Below are positions 19,101 through 26,855 of a stretch of 50,049 nt of DNA, piece by piece; position 1 is the stretch's first letter, and each line of letters begins with the position of its first letter. Made by a program: the position numbers and the translations under genes. The stretch is from an uncultured Clostridia bacterium (GTDB lineage: Bacteria; Bacillota; Clostridia; Christensenellales; Aristaeellaceae): NCBI GenBank assembly GCA_946413245.1, contig CAMKJS010000016.1, forward strand, positions 1-50,049, read 5' to 3'. A model generated the notes under the pieces. The model ran no database searches, was not told where the DNA came from, and saw nothing but the letters and a program-made list of their open reading frames with translations.

Positions 19101-20132
19101 ATGGCAGTTAAAGTCGCAATCAATGGTTTCGGTCGGATCGGCCGTCTTGCTTTCCGTCAGATGTTCGGCGCCGAGGGATACGAAGTCGTCGCCATCAATG
19201 ACCTGACCAGCCCCGCCATGCTGGCGCATCTGCTGAAGTATGATACCGCGCAGAAGGGCTACTGCGGCGTCATCGGCGAGAACAAGCACACTGTCGAAGC
19301 CACCGAGAATTCCATCATCGTGGACGGCAAGGAAATCATCATCTACGCGATCAAGGACGCGAAGGAATGCCCCTGGGGTCAGCTGGGCGTGGACGTCGTG
19401 CTGGAGTGCACCGGCTTCTACACCTCCAAGGACAAGGCCATGGCCCATATCGAAGCGGGCGCCAAGAAGGTCGTTATTTCCGCTCCGGCCGGCAATGACC
19501 TGCCCACCATCGTGTACAACGTGAACCACAACATCCTGAAGCCCGAAGATCAGGTCATTTCCGCTGCCAGCTGCACCACCAACTGCCTGGCGCCCATGAC
19601 CAAGGCTCTGAACGACGCCTATCCGATCGTCAGCGGCATCATGACCACCGTGCATGCCTACACCGGCGACCAGATGATTCTGGACGGCCCGCAGCGCAAG
19701 GGTGACGTGCAGCGTGCCCGTGCCGGCGCCGCCAACATCGTTCCCAACAGCACCGGTGCTGCCAAGGCCATCGGCCTGGTTATCCCCGAGCTGAACGGCA
19801 AGCTGATCGGCTCCGCCCAGCGCGTCCCGGTTCCCACCGGCTCCACCACCATCCTGGTGGCCGTCGTGAAGGGCAAGGATGTGACCAAGGAATCCATCAA
19901 CGCCGCCATGAAGGCCCAGACCTCCGAGTCCTTCGGCTACACCACCGAGAAACTCGTTTCCTCCGATATTATCGGCATGACCTACGGCTCCCTGTTCGAT
20001 GCCAACCAGACCATGGTCAACAAGATCGACGACGACACCTATCAGGTGCAGGTCGTGTCCTGGTATGACAACGAGAACAGCTACACCAGCCAGATGGTTC
20101 GCACCATCAAGTACTTCGCCGAGCTGAAGTAA
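19101..20132 (+). CDS. gap: Type I glyceraldehyde-3-phosphate dehydrogenase
   Basis: A 343-residue glycolytic enzyme that converts glyceraldehyde-3-phosphate, NAD and phosphate to 1,3-bisphosphoglycerate. NAD-binding [12 protein letters not shown] is at 9-20, the catalytic Cys158 in [10 protein letters not shown], and the partner His185 in [10 protein letters not shown]. The [17 protein letters not shown] phosphate-site block and the C-terminal [14 protein letters not shown] are present. Codon use is strongly biased (CTG, AAG, ATC, GGC), as expected for a highly expressed gene. The ribosome site is GGAGG. It is monocistronic, between a promoter and a strong terminator. It is not in a pgk/tpi operon here. 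Confidence 0.96.
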
Positions 20133-20377: not shown

Positions 20378-22684
20378 TTATTTGAAGATTGCCGTCTTTG
20401 GGGCGCCGCAGGCCCTGAACAAGCTGGCGTAGGCTTTTACCTTGCCCTTCGGGCAGGAGAAGACAGCTTTCTTATGGATTCCGGAGAAGGATTTCTCGCC
20501 TGTGTTTTTGCCGGTGAGCTTCGTCGTCCTGACAGTGATGGCTTGCAGGACCTTGCAACCGTAGAATGCACTTTTTCCAATGGAAGTGACCTTGCTGCCC
20601 AGGAAGAAGTTTTTGAGAGCTGTACAGCCGCTGAACGCGGCGTTTCCGATTTTTTGCAGTTTGCTCAGGTTCGGGAAGGAGTCCAGCTTTTTGCAGCCGG
20701 CGAACGCCCTGTCCCCGATTGTCGTGACAGCCGCGCCGCCCTTCACGGTTTTCAGCGCGGTGCAGGAGGCGAAAGCCTGCTTACCGATGCCCTTCACATT
20801 TTTTCCGAGGGTAACGGTCTTCAGCTTCGTCAGGCCTTTGCAGGCTTTGTCTGCGACGGCGGTGACCTTATAGGTCTTTCCGTTTGCCTGGACCGTGTCG
20901 GCAATCTCCAGCATGCTCTGGGTTGCTTTTGCGGGTTTCAGCAGAGCGGCGTTCGAGCCGGAAAGACTGTATACGCCGTTTTTCGCGTTGAGCCTGGTTG
21001 GGTTCTTCCCGGATTCACTGATGTAATCCCCGGTCAGCCTGTCGTCGGCGTCGATTCTGATCTGCTCCGCGAAGTGGTCGTATCCGTTTTCGGCGTCCTT
21101 TTCGCGCTTCGTGGTGTTCATGATTTCGCAGAGATCCGGGCACCCGGTTACATCCAGGGCGGTAAAAGCGTTCTGCCAGCACCAGAGTACTCTCAGTTTG
21201 CGGCACTTGCCGAGGTTCAGCTGTGTCAGCGGGCATTTATAGCAGTACATCTCCCGCAAATGCGTATTTTTGCTGAGGTCGATCGAGGTGATCGGGTTTG
21301 AGGCAATGCCCAGCGACTCCAGCTTTGTATTTTTCCTGATATCCAGAACGGAAATATGGTTCTGTGAGCAGTCCAGCGATTCCAGCTTCGTATTCTTTGT
21401 TACATTCAGCTTTTTCAGCTTATTGTTGAAGCAGTGCAGCGCGGTCAGCGCAGTCAGCTTAGTGGTATTCAGCGTTTCGATTGCGCAGTTTTCGCAGTAC
21501 AACCGCGTCAGCGAAGTGTTTTTGCTGAGATCCAGGGAAGTCAGGCCCTGGTTTCCGGAGCAGAGGAGGAACTCCAGCGCCGTAAAGTGCTCCACGCCTT
21601 TCATGGAAACGATTCCCAGTTTGCTGCAGCTGATTTTCTTCACAGCTGCGATTTCGGCGTCGCTCAGAAAATTGTCGTTGTCCTGGTCAAAGTTTTTTAC
21701 CACTGTGCGGAAAGCATCGTCCGGGAAATTGATTGCTGTAATTGCCACACCGTCCAGGCCCGGCGTGCTGGTATAATCCCCGATAATGGTCAGACCGGGA
21801 TCGAAGCAGAAGCATTGTCCGAACTGCTCATAGGAATAAATGGCCTCCCGCGGGTATTCATTCATGTATCCGCAGAGAACGGGGCATCCCCGCACGTCCA
21901 GCCGGGAAAGGGAATTATGATTGGCGTACAGCGTGTTCAGCTGCGGATGCTGCCCCAGGGTTAAATCGGTCAGGCTGTTATGATCGCAGCCAAGCAGCTC
22001 GAGTGAAACACAGCTGCTCACATCCAGTGCGGTCAGCAGGTTATCGTTGCAGGTAAGACTGGTCAGCGCGGAGCAGCCGGTCACATTCAGCCGGGTCAGT
22101 TTGTTTTGATAGCAATCCAGAAGAGTAAGATCCTTTTTTCCGGACAGATCCAGCGACTTCAGCTGATTATAGGTACATGAAAAATCTCTTAACGAGGCAC
22201 AGCGGCTGAGATCCAGCGACGTCAGGCTGTTTTCCTGGCAGATCAGAATTTCCAGAACCGTGTTTTTCCCCAGATTCAGTTTCGTCAGCTGATTCTGGTG
22301 GCAGGACAGCTGTACCAGGGCAAGGTTGTGGCTGAGATCCAGCGACGACAGCTGATTTTCTGAGCAAACCAGCTTAATCAGTTTGGCATTGCGGCTGAGA
22401 TCCAGGGAGGTGAGCTCGTTTCCTGAGCAGTTCAGATTCTCCAGCTCGGTGAACACTTCGATCCCTGTCAGATCCCGGATATGCAGCTCTTTGGGGGAAA
22501 AGGCCTTTACATTGCTGATTTCCCCTGTGTCAAGAACGTTGTCCCCGTTTGTGTCGAAGGCTTTCACGGCTTCCCGGAAATTCTCATCCGGAAAATGAGC
22601 CTCATCGATGGCCGTGTTCGCCAGCGCAGCGGCGCACAGCAGGGAAAGCACCATACAGAACAATACGGCAAACCATTTCTTCAT
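20378..22684 (-). CDS. Secreted leucine-rich-repeat protein with EF-hand-like loops and BspA-type C-terminus
   Basis: 768 residues from ATG 22684. An AGGAG precedes it by 12 nt, and the first residues MKKWFAVLFC begin a signal peptide ending near LAN. The body is a tandem duplication. Each half opens with a FPDxxFRxxVKxFD module carrying an EF-hand-like loop (Asp44, Asn46, Asp48, Asp52, Glu55 in the first; Asp333, Asp335, Asp337, Glu344 in the second). Each is followed by short LRRs of the form LTSLDLSxNxxLxxLxC. From about residue 610 the repeats change to BspA/LRR_5 type (TTIGDRAFAGCKKLDSF, VTSIGKSAFYGC). No wall anchor is seen. Such proteins usually mediate adhesion. Ca-binding is inferred from the loop residues only. 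Confidence 0.82.
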   Translation of the reverse strand: MKKWFAVLFCMVLSLLCAAALANTAIDEAHFPDENFREAVKAFDTNGDNVLDTGEISNVKAFSPKELHIRDLTGIEVFTELENLNCSGNELTSLDLSRNAKLIKLVCSENQLSSLDLSHNLALVQLSCHQNQLTKLNLGKNTVLEILICQENSLTSLDLSRCASLRDFSCTYNQLKSLDLSGKKDLTLLDCYQNKLTRLNVTGCSALTSLTCNDNLLTALDVSSCVSLELLGCDHNSLTDLTLGQHPQLNTLYANHNSLSRLDVRGCPVLCGYMNEYPREAIYSYEQFGQCFCFDPGLTIIGDYTSTPGLDGVAITAINFPDDAFRTVVKNFDQDNDNFLSDAEIAAVKKISCSKLGIVSMKGVEHFTALEFLLCSGNQGLTSLDLSKNTSLTRLYCENCAIETLNTTKLTALTALHCFNNKLKKLNVTKNTKLESLDCSQNHISVLDIRKNTKLESLGIASNPITSIDLSKNTHLREMYCYKCPLTQLNLGKCRKLRVLWCWQNAFTALDVTGCPDLCEIMNTTKREKDAENGYDHFAEQIRIDADDRLTGDYISESGKNPTRLNAKNGVYSLSGSNAALLKPAKATQSMLEIADTVQANGKTYKVTAVADKACKGLTKLKTVTLGKNVKGIGKQAFASCTALKTVKGGAAVTTIGDRAFAGCKKLDSFPNLSKLQKIGNAAFSGCTALKNFFLGSKVTSIGKSAFYGCKVLQAITVRTTKLTGKNTGEKSFSGIHKKAVFSCPKGKVKAYASLFRACGAPKTAIFK

Positions 22685-22808
22685 GTTTTGAAGCATCTCC
22701 TTTTCCGATTTACCCTGATCTGAATTTCCGGGTTCCTTATTCGCTTTTTCAGCATCTCTGTTCCTGCCGGCAGGAAAAAGGCAGCCCGTTTCCTTCCGTC
22801 CGGAATTC

Positions 22809-22837
22809 ATTGTATCCCGGAAAACGGGATTTTGCAA
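22809..22837 (-). promoter_or_regulatory. Promoter of the LRR gene
   Basis: Minus strand TTGCAA, 17 nt, TACAAT. The spacer contains a CCCG-TTTT-CCGGG inverted repeat. The leader is about 118 nt. Confidence 0.68.
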
Positions 22838-22868
22838 GGAAATTACAGGGTTTTTGGCCGAAACACTC

Positions 22869-22897
22869 TTGACAGCGGCGGAAACCGCGGGTATGAT
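22869..22897 (+). promoter_or_regulatory. Promoter of the ABC exporter leader
   Basis: TTGACA, 17 nt, TATGAT: near-consensus sigma-A promoter, with the start expected around 22904. Confidence 0.85.
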
Positions 22898-22958
22898 ACG
22901 GGTGGTTTCAGCTCCGGGGCCGCGGGAGGCCGTCCGCGGAGCGGATACAGAACGGTTC

Positions 22959-22980
22959 GGAAGCCGGCGGGAGGGCTTCC
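22959..22980 (+). promoter_or_regulatory. Leader hairpin upstream of the small ORF
   Basis: GGAAGCC (22959-22965) pairs with GGCTTCC (22974-22980) around an 8-nt loop. It ends just before the small ORF's AAGGAGG and could influence ribosome access. Confidence 0.6.
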
Positions 22981-23000
22981 GGGAGAAGGAGGACAGAGAG

Positions 23001-23033
23001 ATGCTGCTGAAAGGATTTGTGCTTCAGATTTAG
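23001..23033 (+). CDS. 10-residue leader peptide of the exporter attenuator
   Basis: ATG at 23001, product MLLKGFVLQI, stop TAG. A perfect AAGGAGG (22986-22992) lies 8 nt upstream, the best ribosome site in the region, even though the product is tiny. It sits between a consensus promoter and an intrinsic terminator that precedes a multidrug-type ABC exporter. This is the arrangement of ribosome-mediated attenuators such as B. subtilis bmrB-bmrCD. The peptide probably has no function of its own; its translation or stalling would be the signal. It is the first translated element of the transcript. The mechanism is inferred. Confidence 0.7.
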   Translation: MLLKGFVLQI

Positions 23034-23056
23034 GGGACCGACAGCGTGATTTCTGT

Positions 23057-23087
23057 CCGCTTTCGGGAACGGAAGCGGTATTTTTTT
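23057..23087 (+). terminator. Leader terminator in front of the ABC exporter
   Basis: CCGCTTTC (23057-23064) pairs with GGAAGCGG (23071-23078) around loop GGGAAC, then TA and seven T. It begins 23 nt after the small ORF's stop and 95 nt before the exporter start. A competing GACAG/CTGTC pairing (23040-23044 with 23053-23057) overlaps its base and might act as an alternative fold. Confidence 0.82.
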
Positions 23088-23151
23088 ACCCTTCTGACAG
23101 AGGTGTGAATTGGGACGGAAGGATCCGGCTTTTCCGGGTCAGGGAGTATAT

Positions 23152-25026
23152 ATGAGTACGCTGAACAATGAGAAGAAAAAAGAAACACCGATGGAGCGCC
23201 GCTTCCGCAAAAAGCGGGAGGGCCGGCGGGAACTGCTGCTCCGCTTTCTGAAGGGCAGCAAGGGCTTTTTCCTGCTGTGCATGATCTGCGCTTCCCTTTC
23301 CGCGCTGGCGGATATGATTACCCCACAGATTATCCGGATCAGCGTGGACAACCTGCTGGGCGGACAGGGGACGGAAACCCTCTCCCCCTTCATCCGGGAT
23401 TTGCTGGAGCGGCTTGGCGGAACCCAGGCGCTGCGGGAGAAGCTTTGGATCATGGCCCTGGCGGTGGTCGCCGTCGCGGTGGTCAAGGTGATCGCCCTGT
23501 ACGGCTTCCGGGTCATGAACACCCGGGGCAGCGAAACCCTGGTGAAAACCATGCGGGATACGCTGTACAGCCATATTGAGCGCCTTCCTTTCCAGTGGCA
23601 TATGAAGAACCACACCGGGGATATCATTCAGCGGTGCACCAGCGATATCGACACCACCCGGAACTTTATCTCGGAACAGATGACGAATCTGATCCGGATT
23701 CTGATCCTGCTGGTGCTCAGTATCGTATTTATGGTGAGCATGAACCCCCTGCTGACGCTGATCGCCATGATTCCGGTGCCGGTGATCATCTGGTATTCGA
23801 TCTTCTTTCACCACAAGTTCCGGGAAGGATTCCGGGACTGCGACGAGAACGAGGGCAAGCTGTCCGCCATGGCGCAGGAAAACCTGACCGGCGTGCGGGT
23901 GGTACGGGCTTTCGGGAGGGAGCGGTACGAACGGGACCGCTTCGATGAGCAGAACCGGTATTATACTTCCCTGTGGGTGAAGCTTGGCGGCCTCATGAGC
24001 CTGTTCTGGTCCTCCAGCGATATCCTTTCCAATATTCAGATTATGCTGGTAGTGATTTTCGGAGTGATCTTCTGCCTGCGGGGAGAGATGACCAGCGGCG
24101 AATTCATCGCCTTCATGAGCTATAACGGAATGCTGGTATGGCCGGTGCGCCAGCTGGGCCGGATGATCAGCGACATGAGCAAGGCCGGCGTCAGCATGGA
24201 CCGGATCGGCGCCATTATGGAGGCGGAAGAGGAAAAGGACCGGCCCGGCGCCTCGGAACCGCCGATGACCGGCGATATCCGCTTCGAGCATGTTTCTTTC
24301 GCCTATGAAGGCGCGCCGGAAATGCTGCACGATATCGATCTGACGATTCCCGCGGGCAGCACCCTGGGCATCCTGGGCGGTACCGGATCCGGAAAGAGTA
24401 CGCTGATGTTCCTGCTGGACCGGCTGTACGATCTGCCGGAGAATTCCGGACAGATTACGATCGGCGGCACGGATATCGCGGACATCCGCCTGGAGCACCT
24501 GCGGAAGAATATCGGCATCGTGCTGCAGGAGCCCTTCCTCTTCTCCCGTACGCTCCGGGAAAACCTGAGCATCACCCGGGAAGGGCTTGCGGAGGAGGAA
24601 ATGCGCGCCGCCGCGCGCACGGCCTGCCTGGAGGAAACCATCGACAGCTTCAGCAAGGGCTATGAAACCTTTGTAGGCGAGCGGGGCGTGACCCTCTCCG
24701 GCGGCCAGAAGCAGCGGGCGGCCATCGCCCGGATGCTGACCCAGAATACACCGATTATGATTTTTGACGATTCCCTGTCCGCCGTGGACACGGAAACGGA
24801 CGCGAAAATCCGCGCGGCGCTGGAGAAAAAATTCGGCTCCGCCACGATTATCCTGATCAGCCACCGCATCACCACCCTGTCCAAGGCGGACCAGGTGTTG
24901 GTGCTGGACCATGGGCGGATCAGCCAGCTCGGCGCGCCGGAGGAGCTGAAGAATCAGCCCGGCCTGTATCAGCAGATCAACAATATTCAGTCCATGACAA
25001 CAGATGACAGGGGGGTGAGCGCGTAA
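23152..25026 (+). CDS. Heterodimeric ABC exporter, subunit 1 (degenerate-site half)
   Basis: 624 residues from ATG 23152 (CAGGGAG ribosome site). The N-terminal ABC_membrane domain has about six helices (roughly 40-340). The C-terminal ATPase has Walker A GGTGSGKST, a normal signature LSGGQKQR and Walker B MIFDDSLSAVD. The residue after the Walker B Asp is Asp where active ATPases have Glu. That substitution is the hallmark of the non-catalytic half in heterodimeric exporters such as TM287/288 and BmrC/BmrD. Its stop overlaps the next start by 1 nt. Substrate is unknown; drug, peptide or lipid export are family roles. The leader attenuator suggests induction by translation inhibitors. Confidence 0.9.
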   Translation: MSTLNNEKKKETPMERRFRKKREGRRELLLRFLKGSKGFFLLCMICASLSALADMITPQIIRISVDNLLGGQGTETLSPFIRDLLERLGGTQALREKLWIMALAVVAVAVVKVIALYGFRVMNTRGSETLVKTMRDTLYSHIERLPFQWHMKNHTGDIIQRCTSDIDTTRNFISEQMTNLIRILILLVLSIVFMVSMNPLLTLIAMIPVPVIIWYSIFFHHKFREGFRDCDENEGKLSAMAQENLTGVRVVRAFGRERYERDRFDEQNRYYTSLWVKLGGLMSLFWSSSDILSNIQIMLVVIFGVIFCLRGEMTSGEFIAFMSYNGMLVWPVRQLGRMISDMSKAGVSMDRIGAIMEAEEEKDRPGASEPPMTGDIRFEHVSFAYEGAPEMLHDIDLTIPAGSTLGILGGTGSGKSTLMFLLDRLYDLPENSGQITIGGTDIADIRLEHLRKNIGIVLQEPFLFSRTLRENLSITREGLAEEEMRAAARTACLEETIDSFSKGYETFVGERGVTLSGGQKQRAAIARMLTQNTPIMIFDDSLSAVDTETDAKIRAALEKKFGSATIILISHRITTLSKADQVLVLDHGRISQLGAPEELKNQPGLYQQINNIQSMTTDDRGVSA

Positions 25027-26855
25027 TGTCTCAGACGACCAATATAAATGAACAGGAGCAGAAGACATCCCTGCCGTTTTTCGGCATTCCGCGGATTATG
25101 CCCTATGTCCGGGCGTACCGCGCCACCCTGGCGGTCATGATTGTCTGCGGGCTGGGCGGCACGGCGGTGGATATCCTGATGCCGCTGCTGCAGCGCTATG
25201 CCCTGAACCACTTTATCGCCGGGAACACCCTGGATACCCTGCCCTGGTATATCGCGTTTTATGTGGCCGCGATCCTGTTCGCCTCGGTGATGAACTACAT
25301 TTCCTGCCGCGGCGCCATGACCACGGAGGTCTCCGTGAACCGGGATCTCCGGGCGGCGGCTTTCAATCACCTGCAGACCCTTTCCTTCAGCTATTTCAAT
25401 CAGAACAGCGTGGGCTACATCCATTCCCGGGTCATGAGCGACACGGGGCGGATCGGCTCCCTGGTCTCCTGGTCGCTGATGGACTGCGTATGGCACACCA
25501 GCTACCTGTTCGGTTCCCTGGCGGTGATGTTGCTGATCAACGCCAGGCTGGCGCTGATGGTGATGGTGATTCTGCCCCTGATCGCGGTGCTGTTTTCCGT
25601 GTTCCAGAAAAAGCTGATCGCAGCCAACCGGAAAATCCGGGAGCTGAACAGCAAAATCACGGGGGACTTCAACGAGGGTATTACCGGCGCGAAAACCATC
25701 AAGACCCTGGTGATCGAGGATAAGATGGCGAACGACTTCTTCCGGGATACCGCGGAGATCAAGCGGGAGAGCATCCGGGCGGCCCGGCTGCGGGGCGCCT
25801 TCGCGGTGACCATGCATCTGGCCTCTTCCCTGGCCCTGGCCATCGTGCTGTGGAAGGGCGGCTATATCGCCGCCTCGGAGGTCGGCACCTTCTCCATGTT
25901 CATGAGCTACGCCCAGGGCATGATGGAGCCGGTTCGCTGGATCGTGGACGCCATCTCGGACGTGATTACCACCCAGGTGAACATCGAAAGGCTGACCCGC
26001 CTGCTGGGTACACGCTCCGACGTGACGGACACCCCGGAAGTGGTGGAAAAATACGGCGACAGTTTCAACCCGAAAAAGGAAAACTGGGAGGAAATCAAAG
26101 GGGATATCGCCTTCCGGGACGTTTCCTTCCGCTATCCGGACGGGGACGAGTACGTGCTGGAGCACTTCAATCTGGAGATCCCCTTCGGCAGCAACATCGC
26201 CATCGTCGGGGAAACGGGAGCGGGCAAGAGCACGCTGGTGAACCTGGTATGCCGCTTCTTCGAGCCGACCGAGGGACAGGTGCTGATCGACGGGCGGGAC
26301 GCCCGGGAGCGCAGCCAGCTGTGGCTGCACAGCGCCATCGGTTATGTGCTGCAGACGCCGCACCTGTTCTCCGGAACGATCCGGGAGAACCTGCTGTACG
26401 GCAATCCGAACGCCACGGAGGAGGAGATCCGCCGGGCGCTGGCCCTGGTCTCCGCCGACGAGGTGGTGGCAAAGATGGAAAAGGGTATCGATACGGACGT
26501 GGGCGAGGGCGGCGATCTGCTGTCCACCGGCGAGAAGCAGCTGATTTCCTTTGCCCGGGCCATTCTGGCCAATCCCCGGATTCTGGTGCTGGACGAGGCG
26601 ACGGCTTCGGTGGATACCCTGACGGAGCAGAAGATTCAGGCAGCCATGGAAACCATGATCAGCGGCCGCACTTCTCTGGTGATCGCCCACCGCCTGTCCA
26701 CGGTGCGCAACGCGGACCTGATTCTGGTGGTGAAGGACGGAAAAATCGTGGAGCGGGGCACCCATCGGGAACTGCTGGCGTCCGGCGGCGTCTATCACCG
26801 CCTGTACACGCGGCAGTACGAGGACGAAGCCACCCACCGGGCGCTGGCCGGGTGA
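25026..26855 (+). CDS. Heterodimeric ABC exporter, subunit 2 (catalytic Walker B half)
   Basis: 609 residues. It has six predicted membrane helices in the first 330 residues, then an ATPase with Walker A GETGAGKST, Walker B ILVLDEATASVD (catalytic Glu present), and a non-canonical signature LLSTGEKQLISF in place of LSGGQ. This pattern is complementary to subunit 1. Together they give one working and one degenerate ATP site, as in BmrCD and TM287/288. It starts by a TAATG overlap, with GGGGGTGAG upstream. No terminator follows; leuS begins 71 nt later with its own promoter. Confidence 0.92.
   Translation: MSQTTNINEQEQKTSLPFFGIPRIMPYVRAYRATLAVMIVCGLGGTAVDILMPLLQRYALNHFIAGNTLDTLPWYIAFYVAAILFASVMNYISCRGAMTTEVSVNRDLRAAAFNHLQTLSFSYFNQNSVGYIHSRVMSDTGRIGSLVSWSLMDCVWHTSYLFGSLAVMLLINARLALMVMVILPLIAVLFSVFQKKLIAANRKIRELNSKITGDFNEGITGAKTIKTLVIEDKMANDFFRDTAEIKRESIRAARLRGAFAVTMHLASSLALAIVLWKGGYIAASEVGTFSMFMSYAQGMMEPVRWIVDAISDVITTQVNIERLTRLLGTRSDVTDTPEVVEKYGDSFNPKKENWEEIKGDIAFRDVSFRYPDGDEYVLEHFNLEIPFGSNIAIVGETGAGKSTLVNLVCRFFEPTEGQVLIDGRDARERSQLWLHSAIGYVLQTPHLFSGTIRENLLYGNPNATEEEIRRALALVSADEVVAKMEKGIDTDVGEGGDLLSTGEKQLISFARAILANPRILVLDEATASVDTLTEQKIQAAMETMISGRTSLVIAHRLSTVRNADLILVVKDGKIVERGTHRELLASGGVYHRLYTRQYEDEATHRALAG

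Follow-up and report, generated by a model that had tools for sequence, protein, structure and literature searches.

A predicted leader-ORF transcription attenuator before a heterodimeric ABC exporter gene pair in an uncultured Clostridia bacterium

A ten-codon reading frame with a perfect ribosome site, lying just before an intrinsic terminator and two ABC exporter genes, raises the question of whether translation of the frame decides if the exporter is transcribed. We addressed this question in a window of 50,049 nucleotides (contig C16), by which we mean the whole stretch of DNA analysed, from a single MAG of 3.23 Mb that is 78.6% complete and consists of 134 contigs. The reading we came to favour, with slightly more confidence than doubt, is that the window holds a leader-ORF transcription attenuator. 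The features needed for the argument are listed by position.

19101-20132, + strand: GAPDH gene, separated from the exporter by the LRR-protein gene
20378-22837, - strand: LRR-protein gene, the 5' neighbour of the leader region
22869-22897, + strand: promoter TTGACA-17-TATGAT, 11/12 consensus letters
22956-22983, + strand: predicted hairpin of 10 pairs (22956-22965 with 22974-22983, from folding), immediately 5' of the Shine-Dalgarno sequence (SD)
22986-22992, + strand: AAGGAGG, perfect SD of the leader
22991-23006 with 23042-23058, + strand: predicted SD helix, covering the SD flank and the start codon (folding)
23001-23033, + strand: putative leader ORF MLLKGFVLQI*, 10 codons, ATG at 23001, 8-nt spacing from the SD
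23040-23057, + strand: alternative local hairpin GACAG/CTGTC (folding; pair probabilities ~0.6-0.9 with a ribosome on the SD or the early codons)
23057-23087, + strand: intrinsic terminator (terminator scan), stem 23057-23078 of 9 pairs, then TA and seven T at 23081-23087
23152-25026, + strand: first exporter subunit P0001, YheI/BmrC-like half-transporter
25026-26855, + strand: second exporter subunit P0002, YheH/BmrD-like half-transporter, overlapping the first gene at 25026

An earlier note on this DNA had described most of these parts. The promoter lies where it had been placed, as do the hairpin, the AAGGAGG and the ten-codon ORF, and two hairpin regions are predicted between the promoter and the AAGGAGG; the terminator has its stem and the seven T that follow, but the stem has 9 pairs in the scan and not 8. 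The pairing of GACAG with CTGTC, put forward as a weak candidate antiterminator, is possible, although it forms part of a longer helix and GACAG occurs twice, beside the SD (22992-22996) and after the stop codon (23040-23044), the CTGTC at 23053-23057 being able to pair with either. Two features of ribosome-mediated attenuators of the trp or bmrB kind were found, namely a short ORF with its own SD and an intrinsic terminator before a structural gene. Four promoter-like sites were detected in 22600-23300, the 22869 site being the only one on the + strand; the promoter scan found none on that strand between the terminator and the exporter (23088-23151), which favours the attenuator.

The two genes downstream are the heterodimeric exporter pair that had been described after the leader. 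P0001 carries the Walker B letters FDD and the signature LSGGQ, and P0002 carries LDE and LSTGE (read from the translations), which we take to be the usual heterodimer pattern with one degenerate site. In a comparison with solved structures, P0001 matched YheI (= BmrC) at E 1.4e-85 and P0002 matched YheH (= BmrD) at E 9.3e-90, in line with the parallel drawn earlier with Bacillus subtilis bmrCD; these two are not, however, the top-scoring solved relatives, since they are outscored by chains of the P-glycoprotein type and roughly equalled by other bacterial exporters.

The frequency of this arrangement was surveyed in 450 kb of the genome, made up of 20 stretches of 20 kb and the window, using one terminator rule throughout. 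There were 266 terminators, 59 of them with a gene start within 200 nt, and an SD of at least 6 letters with a 4-45 codon ORF just before the terminator was found at only two of these 59, the window and L144 (33 codons), a rarity that favours the attenuator. A third combination of SD, ORF and terminator, in L139, had no downstream gene by the rule. At L139:3880-3960, in the same genome, a short ORF (MMLLFSTA) with a 7-letter SD ends in codons that make up one side of a terminator-like hairpin; it is followed by two genes, one small and one encoding a secreted binding-type protein.

Folding of the leader RNA (22900-23100) gave -84 kcal/mol, 3.2 sd below shuffled sequences, none of 200 being as low. 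The predicted SD helix takes up C23057 and C23058, which form the base of the terminator stem, and it is lengthened by pairing of GAAGG (22985-22989) with CTTTC (23060-23064) until the terminator is complete. With no ribosome present, the helix counts 20 pairs while the RNA ends at 23064-23072, and 15 after the terminator forms (folding, by the script's count). Both the low fold energy and the sequestering of the SD by a strand that overlaps the terminator favour the attenuator. In the folds, the two GACAG copies compete for the single CTGTC. When a ribosome with a 31-nt footprint was placed at successive positions and equilibrium pair probabilities were calculated, only the two basal pairs of the terminator switched. 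The pair 23058:23077 had a probability of ~0.14 when no ribosome was on the RNA. Placing one at the start, codon 3 or codon 5 raised this to 0.92-0.98, and positions at codon 7, codon 9 and the stop gave 0.13-0.25; the outermost pair 23057:23078 rose from 0.03 to 0.3-0.6 and fell back as the ribosome position changed. The terminator core (23059-23064 with 23071-23076) had a probability of at least 0.94 in every ribosome state, and a helix as strong as that of the SD arose in 13 of 500 shuffles, which makes it moderately unusual and no more; both count against the attenuator, and we regard the modelled switch as plausible but weak. An antiterminator made of the 5' arms of the upstream hairpin and the terminator (-15.0 kcal/mol) was rejected because 200 of 500 shuffles equalled it.

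These predicted folds define two alternative RNA states, from which the following mechanism can be proposed. Polymerase starting at the 22869 promoter would meet the terminator at 23057-23087, and readthrough would give exporter mRNA. The SD and start codon of the leader would pair with the strand after the stop codon, including the first bases of the terminator 5' arm. Normal initiation on the perfect SD would open this helix and allow GACAG at 23040 to fold with CTGTC at 23053, and with the downstream strand folded on itself the terminator stem would be completed and transcription would stop. If the SD were free of ribosomes, or if a ribosome stalled at about codon 6 or later blocked reloading, the SD helix could re-form, removing the two basal pairs of the terminator beside the T-run and letting more polymerases pass. 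We infer that termination responds to the loss or gain of these two pairs and that the signal is a slowing of translation, caused for example by ribosome-targeting drugs.

Conservation was evaluated in 45 congeneric genomes (the source genome included), 40 of which have the exporter at E <=1e-100, with one locus read per genome. A search of the 45 with the leader DNA returned no match except the window's own. By a rule requiring a leader ORF and a terminator, leaders were present at 4 of the 40 loci (the window, L004, L090 and L092) and absent from 36; the rule is strict, and outside the genus it missed L066 and L079, whose leaders are visible by eye. The four are of three kinds: L090 and L092 share the peptide MRSRSGKM(THT or ENA)GNAVYGYAFLP (type B), and the L004 ORF reads MERQYHD, or 30 residues from an earlier ATG. 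L004 is the only one of the 40 loci with a promoter-to-start region that can be aligned with that of the window, at a score reached by 2 of 300 shuffles, and the two peptides do not match. The earlier note had named loss of the small ORF among relatives as a finding that would speak against its reading, and this is what was observed: the ORF is not kept, few congeneric loci have a leader by the rule, and the peptides differ. The GAPDH gene lies 5' of the exporter on the same strand at 32 of the 40 loci (L005-L008, L010-L032, L087-L089, L091 and L093) and on the other strand at one, and was not in the fetched flank at seven; at most of the 32, a strong GC-rich terminator stands before the exporter, the rule detects no leader ORF, and a further promoter could hardly be fitted in. 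At L033, which shares a contig with L004, GAPDH lies ~2 kb upstream of the exporter, and the window GAPDH has its own terminator-like hairpin ~120 nt further on. Alignment of the window terminator with nine congeneric terminators gave scores of 20-51; L004 scored 47, and its shuffles reached 44. From the peptide mismatch, the missing DNA matches and the GAPDH-spacer context it follows that the leader ORF as such is, at the level of sequence, not conserved, which weighs against the attenuator, and that the window terminator is probably older than the leader.

A different picture emerged for a related exporter elsewhere in the family. Searching 140 family genomes with the L159 exporter protein gave 68 matches at E <=1e-130, and the upstream DNA was obtained for 60 of these loci, the eight lowest-scoring being left out (L227 contributed only 146 bases). 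At 44 of the 60 loci a 6- or 7-letter SD was accompanied by an ORF of 16-40 codons and a terminator (the SD having 7 letters in 39 of the 44), compared with 0 of 60 in the reverse complements and 0, 1, 1, 0 and 1 of 60 in five sets of shuffles; some terminator was present upstream at 56. L230, among the 44, is probably a spurious match. The distance from stop codon to hairpin had a median of 24 nt (14-66), close to the 23 nt of the window, whose 10-codon ORF is shorter than all 44 of these leader ORFs, a further point against the attenuator there. An SD duplex as strong occurred in at most 10 of 200 shuffles for 26 of the 44 leaders, and not for the other 18.

The pairings were then evaluated by swapping partners among 43 of these leaders (L230, with an empty element, was left out). 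The SD paired better with its own ORF end than with foreign ones (mean -20.9 vs -17.2 kcal/mol; 0 of 5000 permutations as good), as did the ORF end with its own terminator 5' arm (-18.8 vs -16.7 kcal/mol; 0 of 5000), and the control pairing of the SD with its own terminator was not improved (-11.1 vs -11.0 kcal/mol; 1654 of 5000). With one leader per genus (n=22), the corresponding counts were 0, 6 and 2885 of 5000. The swap of ORF end and terminator could gain from shared base composition, although the control of SD and terminator showed no such effect. Judged from the sequences, the pattern is that of a four-element attenuator, in which the SD pairs with the ORF end, the ORF end with the terminator 5' arm, and that arm within the terminator. 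In such a design, a ribosome that starts and then stalls early would free the ORF end to block the terminator, a ribosome that finishes would cover the ORF end, and without a ribosome the ORF end would stay bound to the SD. Both family pairings are present in L004 (-22.2 and -20.0 kcal/mol), which, together with the recurrence at 44 of 60 loci and the swap-tested pairings, favours the attenuator. In the window the family pairing of SD and ORF end is absent (-10.2 kcal/mol, with 49 of 55 foreign ORF ends equal or better), which speaks against it; the window SD pairs instead with its own terminator flank at -20.1 kcal/mol, more strongly than in all 43 family leaders (best -19.9).

Orthologous exporters outside the genus also have leaders, of type A (L062, L064, L066, L067, L079 and L080, in Oscillospiraceae-labelled and other MAGs) and type C (L097, L099, L101 and L102), with single cases at L054 and L070. 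Pairing of the SD with the last ORF codons was matched by 0-13, 0-15 and 0-3 of 500 shuffles in types A, B and C; with 250 of 500 at L054 and 45 of 500 at L070, it is unsupported in both single cases. The antiterminator pairing with the terminator arm was matched by 15 of 500 shuffles at L066, 8 at L079, 18 at L004, 31 at L090 and 16 at L092, and by 66-258 at the other eight type A and C loci. The antiterminators of types A and C are thus mostly not significant locus by locus, the pooled swap test being their one support, and when the other leaders were folded with ribosomes at different positions the terminator formed in nearly all states, so that equilibrium folding alone shows no switching in them. 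A peptide-specific stalling motif was considered, as types A, B and C share the C-terminal residues FAP or LAP, YAFLP, and AALS; it was not retained, because the shared C-terminal codons are the pairing partner of the SD, and their conservation need not concern the peptide.

A covariance model of the four type C leaders (R1) was searched in 308 family genomes and gave 27 matches at E <=0.1 in 26 genomes, four of them the training loci. Among thirteen further matches at E <=0.0078, eight lie before an exporter homologue, one (L174) before hflX, and four (L156, L160, L162 and L163) before neither; three of the ten weaker matches lie before an exporter homologue. Because R1 both finds and describes these relatives, its matches lean to its structure; the count of 44 in 60 is independent of it. 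The leader before hflX favours the attenuator, in view of the known control of Listeria hflXr. This L174 leader, in genome G152, is type C-like (MTIRNWIRMAWRLRAAFSACVFRQDV). A model of type A (R2) matched at 8 places in 7 of the 60 genomes searched; one of these, L175 in G229, has a type A-like leader ORF (MMTTRILACKRLAPHPSLR) and a terminator before a GNAT acetyltransferase gene. The window leader matches neither R1 (1.1 bits, E 0.47) nor R2 (5.2 bits, E 0.11), which tells against the attenuator. Against Rfam it had two matches at E <=5, neither of them anywhere near gathering score; 15 loci with other leaders had none at gathering score, and 18 loci searched at E <=2 had three matches, all below gathering.

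Exporter orthologues in other genera are also preceded by a conserved structured RNA without an obvious ORF (type D; AUCGGAGGG ... CCGGAUAAG and a terminator), seen at eight loci (L098, L100, L104, L105, L108, L109, L110 and L112), with further loci at L243-L267. It has no Rfam match. Its model matched 36 of 150 family genomes, a count that includes the six training genomes in the draw, and among 19 loci inspected a MATE-like ORF lay just downstream in nine by eye, the two that were checked being Pfam MatE. By analogy, this setting may recall the guanidine-IV (mepA) riboswitch. At L106, L107 and L111, a conserved CATCTCCCTGCCG...GCAGGGGCA hairpin 5' of the exporter orthologue is followed by A rather than T.

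The arrangement in the window could also be explained by a static partial terminator, derived from the GAPDH-exporter spacer, that keeps the exporter at a low constant level, the promoter and mini-ORF having restored transcription after GAPDH and exporter were separated, with no sensing role for the ORF. Such an origin agrees with the 32 GAPDH-exporter loci and their mostly similar terminators without leader ORFs, with the terminator alignments, and with a core that is predicted in all ribosome states; yet it leaves a perfect SD on a 10-codon ORF superfluous and the strong pairing of this SD with the terminator flank unexplained, and the family-wide recurrence and swap tests exceed its reach. 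We consider it unlikely.

It is more readily doubted that the region is a small independent gene or RNA, with a promoter, a 10-residue peptide and its own terminator, the exporter being transcribed from elsewhere. The unit is complete in itself and the peptide is hydrophobic, but the peptide is not conserved and an independent exporter promoter would have to lie where the scan found no + strand site, making this account improbable. The type D leaders of eight orthologous exporters in other genera, with a motif that also occurs before MatE genes, raise the thought of a ligand-binding, riboswitch-like leader in which the ORF is incidental; to this we give very little credence, since the type D model found nothing in G000, no Rfam family came near gathering score in the window leader, and the DNA search of 45 genomes found that leader no relative beyond itself.

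Under the favoured attenuator reading, B. subtilis bmrB-bmrCD is the nearest characterised case, Listeria hflXr the nearest in switch anatomy, and Streptococcus pneumoniae patAB the third. In the bmr locus, as in the window, the genes of a heterodimeric exporter pair follow a leader ORF and a terminator (Reilman 2014, PMC4191407), and the gene order is the same, YheI-like then YheH-like. bmrB itself has 53 codons, with the terminator inside the coding sequence and translation required for induction (PMC4191407), whereas the window ORF has 10 codons and a terminator 23 nt past its stop, and in the predicted fold initiation promotes termination. In sign our model differs from bmrB, as it predicts that exporter transcription would go up, and not down, when initiation is lost. 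The window resembles a bmrB-type attenuator in layout and is not classed as a bmrB relative. Listeria hflXr is controlled by a leader ORF and terminator (PMC6310831), and this leader, rli80, likewise combines a short ORF (14 codons) with a terminator, an anti-terminator and dependence on the ribosome; a related leader in the family of the window also precedes hflX. rli80 also carries an RLR motif, and its anti-anti-terminator and anti-terminator are clearly defined (PMC6310831), whereas in the window the motif is missing and there is no separate middle element. At patAB, a terminator likewise precedes a heterodimeric-type exporter gene pair and its mutation raises expression; in contrast to the window, no leader ORF is described in the available portion of that paper (PMC4319486). 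The other leaders of the family (types A, B and C and the 44 before the paralogue) share with the window a strong SD, a short ORF, a terminator ~24 nt past the stop and an exporter, but in them the last codons of the ORF are partner both to the SD and to the terminator 5' arm, a middle element that the window does not have. Naville and Gautheret report attenuator candidates before many ABC transporter genes, one being a multidrug export operon of lactobacilli (PMC2965389). Among titles and abstract beginnings in the open-licence literature, we found none that describes leader ORFs upstream of ABC exporter genes for these bacteria.

The translation-controlled attenuator that the earlier note had proposed is upheld in its layout, which recurs at most of the paralogue loci with pairings that couple the ribosome site to the terminator, and is weakened by an unconserved ORF and a weak switch in folding. 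The window is probably a reduced variant of such an attenuator, with a layout that probably lets ribosomes decide whether the exporter is made, the case being built on architecture and family context and not on conservation of the ORF. A wider proposal is tentative, and we would sooner expect it to need revision than to hold in full: that leader-ORF attenuators are a general means by which this family of uncultured Clostridia regulates its heterodimeric ABC exporters, and at least one hflX, with the SD and not the peptide as a working strand of the switch, and that the window is a stripped-down form, assembled before a terminator inherited from a GAPDH spacer, whose SD pairs directly with the terminator, so that it reads initiation rather than peptide-specific stalling. 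If this is true, translation-sensing control of multidrug-type exporters would be no Bacillus curiosity but a common feature of one bacterial family of the gut and rumen, and such leaders would be missed by peptide similarity alone, as the letters conserved in them would be those that base-pair with the ribosome site. In that case the window would illustrate how a switch of this kind can be built or reduced, its components being a promoter, a strong ribosome site and a terminator of older origin.
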